Shown here piece by piece: positions 18,711-19,679 of a stretch of DNA of 64,000 bases (positions within the stretch are counted from its first letter, which is position 1; every line of letters begins with the position of its first letter). This DNA is from Natronomonas gomsonensis. GTDB taxonomy: Archaea > Halobacteriota > Halobacteria > Halobacteriales > Haloarculaceae. Position numbers and translations under genes: made by a program. Location of the stretch: assembly GCF_013391635.1 (NCBI RefSeq), contig NZ_JACAWU010000002.1, forward strand, positions 1,426,001 to 1,490,000, in the 5' to 3' direction. The notes below the pieces were generated by a model that saw nothing but the letters and a program-made list of their open reading frames with translations, made no database searches and was not told the origin of the DNA.

Positions 18711-19679
18711 TTACGTCCCGAAGAAGCGGTCCAATCCCGTCTGTTTTCGGTCGGTTCCTGCCGGGTCGGCGGCCCACGGCGTGTGACGTTCGCGTGCCGC
18801 CTCACTGTCGGCCTCCGGTGGGTCAGAGGGGTCGTACCCGCCACATTCGGTGCCGCACTCCCGGGCAGGGTCGACCAGCCGACCCTTCCACTCGCAGTAC
18901 GGAAGCGCGTCGTCCGGCCGGAACGGCGGGCCCCCCGCGTCGGCTTGGCTACAGGCTGGGAGCGTCTCCGGACGCCAGCCCTTGCCGTAGGCGCGTTCCG
19001 CGACTCGCCGACGGAGGCGGGCCTTCTCGGCGGCGGTGACGGGTTCGATGTCGACTCGGGCGGGCGATTCTTCGAGGACGGCGACTCCCGGTTCGTCGGT
19101 CGACAGCGGCGTGGCCTCCCGGACCACCTCGGTATCACCCGTTTCACTGTCGAAGCGCCACACGCCGACGGACTCCGGGATGCGATTCAGGTGCGCGCCC
19201 GTGACGTAGGATTCGGTGACGAGGACGACCTCGTCGAACAGTGCGAGCGAGACGTCCTTCCGCAACTGGAGTTCGAGGTCGCCTGGACGACCGAGGTCGG
19301 GTTTGTTCTCGAAGGCCCGCAACCCGCCGATCCAGTCGGGGTACCGCGCCGTCTGTCGGACGTAGCGGCGGCCGTTGCGGCGCTCGGCCGCGAAGAACCC
19401 GACTTCGACAGCGCGGTCGACGGCTCCCCTGGCACGGTCGGGAGCGGCGTCGATGGCGTCCTTCCAGTAGCGGGCCCGCCCCGCGCCAACGTCGCTCTCG
19501 ATAGCGAGGTCGGGAATCGACTCGGCGGTGATGGCGACGCGGTCCTCGAACTCCGGACCCGGACGGATTTCGACGGCGTCGACGATGCGCGTGTGCGTGC
19601 CGAGTTGGCGGGCGAGGAGGCCGTCGCTTTCGGCCTCGATGGCGGCACACACCGCGAGTTCGAAGGGGTACTCCCGCAC
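18711..19679 (-). CDS. Predicted PD-(D/E)XK-like nuclease with Cys cluster and C-terminal PIP box
   Basis: A 322-residue haloarchaeal protein (I believe the family catalogued as DUF5787). The start is the GTG at 19679, giving VREYPFELAV; the longer frame upstream is Arg-rich nonsense. Asp115 and Glu124-Asn125-Lys126, followed by LELQLRKDVSLALFDEVVLV, resemble a PD-(D/E)XK nuclease core with its trailing helix and strand. Cys11 near the N-terminus plus Cys243, 262, 275 and 279 near the end recall the split Fe-S staple of Cas4/AddB-type nucleases. Residues 313-320, QTGLDRFF, are a canonical PCNA-interacting box at the very C-terminus. Nuclease activity is inferred. It converges on the MBL gene. 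Confidence 0.75.
   Translation of the reverse strand: MREYPFELAVCAAIEAESDGLLARQLGTHTRIVDAVEIRPGPEFEDRVAITAESIPDLAIESDVGAGRARYWKDAIDAAPDRARGAVDRAVEVGFFAAERRNGRRYVRQTARYPDWIGGLRAFENKPDLGRPGDLELQLRKDVSLALFDEVVLVTESYVTGAHLNRIPESVGVWRFDSETGDTEVVREATPLSTDEPGVAVLEESPARVDIEPVTAAEKARLRRRVAERAYGKGWRPETLPACSQADAGGPPFRPDDALPYCEWKGRLVDPARECGTECGGYDPSDPPEADSEAARERHTPWAADPAGTDRKQTGLDRFFGT

Follow-up and report, generated by a model that had tools for sequence, protein, structure and literature searches.

Only a few archaeal partners of the sliding clamp PCNA are known beyond the core replication set, and the accessible text of a 2016 review treats NucS, NreA/NreB and TIP (PMC4929162). NucS, also called EndoMS, is described there as an archaeal PD-(D/E)XK nuclease that has a C-terminal PCNA-interacting protein (PIP) box in Pyrococcus. 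FEN1 is an accepted PIP-box nuclease in the accessible parts of the same review and of a Haloferax review (PMC7776575), the latter giving the haloarchaeal PIP pattern as QxxLxxFx. Here, we describe a gene in a 64,000-nucleotide stretch of the Natronomonas gomsonensis genome (contig NZ_JACAWU010000002.1, positions 1,426,001 to 1,490,000; hereafter the window), whose product belongs to the Pfam family DUF5787 and is likely to be a PCNA-tethered, metal-dependent PD-(D/E)XK DNA nuclease. The kind of enzyme is already known from NucS; what is new is the architecture, in which a winged-helix-like insertion and five cysteines are combined with a FEN1-type tail. If this is true, a near-universal haloarchaeal gene adds a replication or repair factor in a group with good genetics, and direct testing is feasible given that the family is present in Haloferax volcanii.

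The 322-amino-acid open reading frame (ORF) begins with a GTG codon at position 19679 of the window. Its product matches Pfam PF19100 (DUF5787, a family of unknown function) at 326.4 bits against a cut-off of 25 (E 2.5e-97), with the full profile (1-278 of 278) spanning residues 21-284. An earlier reading made from the letters of the window (the sequence-only reading) had proposed an undescribed nuclease at 18711..19679 and gave no strand. The ORF is real and lies on the minus strand, and QTGLDRFF at residues 313-320 with only GT after it, Asp115, Glu124-Asn-Lys126, LQLRKD at 137-142 and cysteines 11, 243, 262, 275 and 279 all lie where that reading placed them. The family also appears to be undescribed, its only name in Pfam being DUF5787: a literature search for that name or for a haloarchaeal nuclease with such a fold, with coverage mostly outside the subscription journals, found nothing about it, and the accessible text of the clamp-partner reviews (PMC4929162, PMC7776575) names no such protein.

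Most carriers of the family have two DUF5787 paralogues, A (the window gene) and B. The A loci number 67, comprising the window's own, 27 named loci and 39 of 40 stretches from a Pfam search (the fortieth, L082, is a B locus), and the B loci number 32 (L002-L032 and L082). Protein counts for A use 65 of the 67; L055 was left out for a contig end, and L057 for being split over two frames. The latter, from Natrinema hispanicum, is either disrupted or affected by a sequencing error. Together the 65 A and 32 B proteins make a joint alignment of 97 rows. In 23 of 28 A rows the start codon closest to the anticipated site falls exactly there; it is off by one to four codons in four rows, and a contig edge cuts it off in one. 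The median pairwise identity of the A homologues is 58%, and the copy in Natronomonas sp. CBA1123 is 94% identical. The features of the window gene are as follows.

18711..19679, minus strand: DUF5787 paralogue A, 322 amino acids, predicted PCNA-tethered PD-(D/E)XK nuclease (ORF and Pfam match)
19647..19649, minus strand: Cys11 on the first helix (62/65 A, 32/32 B)
19578..19580, minus strand: Asp34 of the second strand, predicted to be the catalytic acid (97/97 in the joint alignment; strand 31-40 in the model)
19347..19517, minus strand: residues 55-111, a winged-helix-like segment inserted between Asp34 and Glu124
19302..19310, minus strand: Glu124-Asn125-Lys126, (D/E)XK motif ending the third core strand (97/97 each; strand 117-125)
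19266..19268, minus strand: Gln138, in the helix that follows the E-x-K strand (97/97; helix 135-145)
18843..18953, minus strand: cluster of Cys243, Cys262, Cys275 and Cys279 (65, 65, 64 and 63 of 65 A; 32/32 each in B)
18720..18743, minus strand: PIP-type box QTGLDRFF, residues 313-320 (conserved in A and like the FEN1 tail)

The tail differs between the two paralogues. A Q-x-x-[LIMV]-x-x-[FYW] sequence stands near the C-terminal end of 64 of the 65 A proteins and of none of the 32 B proteins, which end instead in a GGPG stretch followed by a basic tail. By position, Q313 is kept in 64/65, L316 in 63/65 and an aromatic residue (F, Y or W) at 319 in 64/65, the commonest forms being QSGLDRF (22) and QSGLDQF (9). 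The box is followed by a single residue in 48 proteins, by none in 3 and by at most 14, and the sole A protein without it, that of L048, has a wholly different C-terminal end. These counts are not biased by the way in which loci were found, because neither the seed patterns (which covered Asp115 and two cysteine stretches) nor the Pfam profile extends over the tail. In the predicted model residues 312-322 have a predicted local distance difference test score (pLDDT) below 50, as is anticipated for a flexible tail. The exact FF ending that the sequence-only reading regarded as part of the box is not a required part of it, as the second F is kept in only 3 of the 65 and the haloarchaeal pattern QxxLxxFx has no second aromatic; the rest of that PIP box, Q-x-x-L-x-x-F at a flexible terminus, is retained across the orthologues.

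We used FEN1 as a yardstick, with 31 proteins taken from 31 of 55 matching genomes, the window's own included. All 31 end in Q[TSA][GS]L-x-x-[WF] followed by one or two residues, with one aromatic only, as in A. Within the window's genome FEN1 ends QTGLDRWT and paralogue A ends QTGLDRFF; on sequence, the A tail is nearly that of FEN1 with F for W. This likeness is confined to the tail, since profile comparison found no homology to speak of between DUF5787-A and FEN1 (hhalign probability 9%). FEN1 belongs to a different nuclease fold. Four of the 31 FEN1 proteins come from genomes without DUF5787 (families f5 and f41) and are 37-39% identical to that of the window's genome.

In order to see how often such endings arise, we examined the ORFs of at least 150 amino acids in the window and in L001-L133. 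Of 2,520, 101 end in Q..[LIMV]..[FYW] with zero to four residues after it, and BLAST assigned 64 of these to DUF5787-A (the window gene being counted twice, again as L001), 31 to FEN1 and 6 to others. Judged from their letters, three of the six are on real-looking proteins and three on chance-looking frames. The former are a D12-class adenine methylase-like protein in L082 (plus strand, from about 4857) that ends QTGLGEFSE, an SRAP/HMCES-like abasic-site protein on the minus strand of L045 with the ending QSQLDQFSSG, and a 228-amino-acid frame with cysteine pairs, on the minus strand at the edge of L131, that ends QSSLGSFG.

The predicted model of the remainder of the protein shows the alpha-beta-beta-beta-alpha-beta core that characterizes PD-(D/E)XK nucleases, with an aspartate, Asp34, on the second strand and Glu124-x-Lys126 on the third, in the roles predicted for these residues. 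The sequence-only reading had assigned the catalytic acid to Asp115. That position is D in 58, E in 5, N in 1 and Q in 1 of the 65 A proteins, and D in 27, E in 4 and S in 1 of the 32 B proteins. Because Asp34 shows no such variation, we set Asp115 aside and consider Asp34 the more likely catalytic aspartate; the PD-(D/E)XK core proposed by that reading is supported by the fold prediction and by the invariance of E-N-K. The alignment of homologues therefore keeps Glu124, Lys126, the cysteines and Q-x-x-L-x-x-F, and lets Asp115 and the second F vary. With these two corrections (Asp34 for Asp115, and one aromatic), a PCNA-tethered PD-(D/E)XK nuclease is the best-supported interpretation, and the gene probably encodes an overlooked replication or repair nuclease of haloarchaea.

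The cysteines are likewise a feature of both paralogues, each of the five being kept in 94 to 97 of the 97 rows, and B has all five as well as the same predicted active site in 32/32. Residues 241-280 are modelled confidently in the full protein (block means of pLDDT 87-92), but fall to 57-70 when the C-terminal 151 residues are folded alone (overall pLDDT 69, predicted template modelling score 0.38). This fits a metal-bound region packed on the nuclease half, and also fits a region that merely needs its neighbor; the metal may be either iron-sulphur or zinc. The sequence-only reading had compared the cysteines with the iron-sulphur staple of AddB, Cas4 and Dna2, and the likeness is that one N-terminal and several C-terminal cysteines surround a PD-(D/E)XK core. 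In those nucleases the pattern is one N-terminal cysteine plus three C-terminal ones, C-x2-C-x5-8-C. DUF5787-A differs from this pattern, with five rather than four conserved cysteines in the spacing Cys11 plus C-x18-C-x12-C-x3-C. A Pfam search of 25 A proteins gave no Cas4, AddB or Dna2 family match, and no such structure is among the 50 VIA matches listed, although some may stand further down. Four CDGSH iron-sulphur proteins that a PDB profile search placed around Cys243 (E 0.1-0.15) were too weak to use.

Several results weigh against a clamp-tethered nuclease. Foldseek found no match in the PDB at E ≤0.001, so that the case for the fold depends on VIA re-alignment and on BFVD; the latter has only two matches at E ≤0.001, and template modelling scores by query are low (0.21-0.27 in the first three rows). 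The model was itself built on an alignment of only 25 rows. Sequence profiles tie DUF5787 to no known nuclease. Besides DUF5787, Pfam gave only stray matches (at best Tannase, E 0.014, in 2 of 25 A proteins; XPA_N, E 0.081, in 1 of 25), NCBIfam gave only sub-threshold sce7726 matches (12 of 25), and the relation to NucS is absent at profile level, with an hhalign probability of 0.6% and no NucS_C match in 25 A proteins. The gene's setting belongs here too: no replication or repair gene was found as an operon partner among the 67 A loci, whose commonest neighbors, eIF2-gamma and an MBL-fold gene, are on the opposite strand.

DUF5787 is present above the cut-off in 80 of 392 sampled genomes of the phylum. 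Within the order it is found in 284 of 293 sampled genomes, and in 252 of the 254 with at least 90% completeness and at most 5% contamination; the nine order genomes without it all belong to families f5, f38 and f41. Haloferax volcanii is the sole carrier among 14 control genomes. Outside the order a single match is listed (G227); it reaches 21.1 bits, below the cut-off, on a long frame that starts like a methionyl-tRNA synthetase, and we take it as chance. Paralogue B lies elsewhere in the window's genome and is 36% identical to A. Given that a branch with 100/100 support separates A from B in an unrooted tree of the 97 rows, the gene was probably duplicated before the sampled haloarchaea diverged.

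Given the predicted likeness in kind between A and NucS, we compared the two directly. Judging from sequence, A is like NucS in kind and lies outside the NucS family: direct homology was not found, and in place of the N-terminal Sm/OB-like domain that the accessible text of the 2016 review gives for NucS (PMC4929162), A has the winged-helix-like insertion and the cysteine cluster. A NucS gene is also present in the window's genome and in 22 of 40 sampled order genomes. From 30 NucS-family loci (L133-L162) 25 ORFs could be read, some of them divergent relatives, and of their tails 1 has a full box, 4 have a Q-less L-x-x-F and 20, including that of the window's genome, have neither. Haloarchaeal NucS tails are therefore mostly without a PIP-like box, unlike Pyrococcus NucS as described in that text (PMC4929162). 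This raises the suggestion, and only that, that A took over clamp-tethered work from NucS. In its fuller form, which we regard as doubtful, the work would have moved to a lineage-specific gene acquired along with its untethered paralogue ahead of haloarchaeal diversification, making A a core repair enzyme and perhaps the missing nuclease of an NreA/UvrABC crosslink pathway. Such a handover is weakened by the four NucS-family tails that retain L-x-x-F.

An alternative is that the PD-(D/E)XK fold is present and catalytically inert, leaving a DNA-binding, clamp-docked scaffold or sensor in which the winged helix and zinc-bound cysteines do the work. VIA does give winged-helix-like matches for residues 55-111. 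Moreover, the four C-terminal cysteines are near invariant and Cys11 is dispensable, being Ala in 3/65, a picture that would suit an ordinary zinc site. The three proteins with that Ala, from L048, L085 and L099, retain all four of the others. The remaining losses are equally scattered: Cys279 is missing in L051 and L052 and, in the alignment, Cys275 in L043. Nevertheless, Asp34, Glu124, Lys126 and Gln138 show no substitution in any of the 97 rows of the two paralogues, and catalytically inert copies rarely retain invariant active-site residues, for which reason we consider a scaffold unlikely.

The fold matches also admit an RNase or a restriction or defence enzyme whose tail serves to bind something other than PCNA. 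Card1, Can2, PaqCI and BsaWI are among the VIA matches, the sce7726-type profile match points weakly in the same direction (a search for its function, judged at record level, found nothing), and PADLOC gave weak matches only, the best to Cmr5 (E 0.013) and another to cll (E 0.022). PHROGs matches were weak as well (best E 0.28). Unlike most defence genes, however, this one is near-universal in the order with similar surroundings in many genomes, its tail is nearly that of FEN1, and one scan of viral contigs returned 20 pattern stretches with no DUF5787 relative among them; a defence role or RNase is thus unlikely as well. Least likely of all is that the terminal QxxLxxF is chance or merely inherited with no binding role: the second aromatic is indeed not kept, but FEN1 boxes likewise have just one, and the box exceeds chance because it is kept in 64/65 at the median identity given above, with entropies of 0.11, 0.23 and 0.64 bits at columns 313, 316 and 319 against a mean of 1.68 for the 30 columns 281-310.

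In the clamp-tethered nuclease that we favor, the sliding clamp would bring the enzyme to newly replicated or damaged DNA. The nuclease would be formed by an N-terminal helix, two strands (with Asp34), the winged-helix-like insertion, which probably grips DNA, the Glu124-x-Lys126 strand and the Gln138 helix. The five-cysteine region would bind its metal and staple the C-terminal part onto the nuclease, and the last seven or eight residues, on their flexible tail, would dock in the PCNA pocket used by FEN1. If that pocket is used, the two nucleases could compete for the clamp or share it.

As a first guess, the role may be in crosslink or excision repair, because cells are protected against mitomycin C both by NreA, which binds the clamp, and by MmcB, a protein with relatives among the closest fold matches. 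We take 3dnx/SPO1766 to be an MmcB-like relative, and MmcB is not known to carry either a clamp box or such a group of cysteines. The MmcB-like profile PF06319 had no match at E ≤10 in 25 A proteins, as far as HMMER's filters allow, and none at E ≤1 in the window's genome; in the control genomes there were matches below the cut-off at E ≤1, Haloferax included, and only Caulobacter matched at E ≤0.001. A phage record chosen as an MmcB on which to map the active site did not match the profile.

The neighboring genes give no functional hint beyond that of an old chromosomal gene, because none points to replication or repair. Counts over the 67 A loci are lower bounds, as flank lengths differ. The gene for eIF2-gamma lies upstream and divergent in at least 42, and a PIN_9 gene, also upstream, shares the strand of eIF2-gamma in at least 34. 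Downstream and convergent are an MBL-fold gene in at least 44 and an AAA ATPase gene in at least 33, the latter being upstream in at least 4. Co-directional neighbors are rarer, namely a DUF7351 regulator upstream in at least 12, a thiolase downstream in at least 7 and a HAD hydrolase upstream in at least 4.
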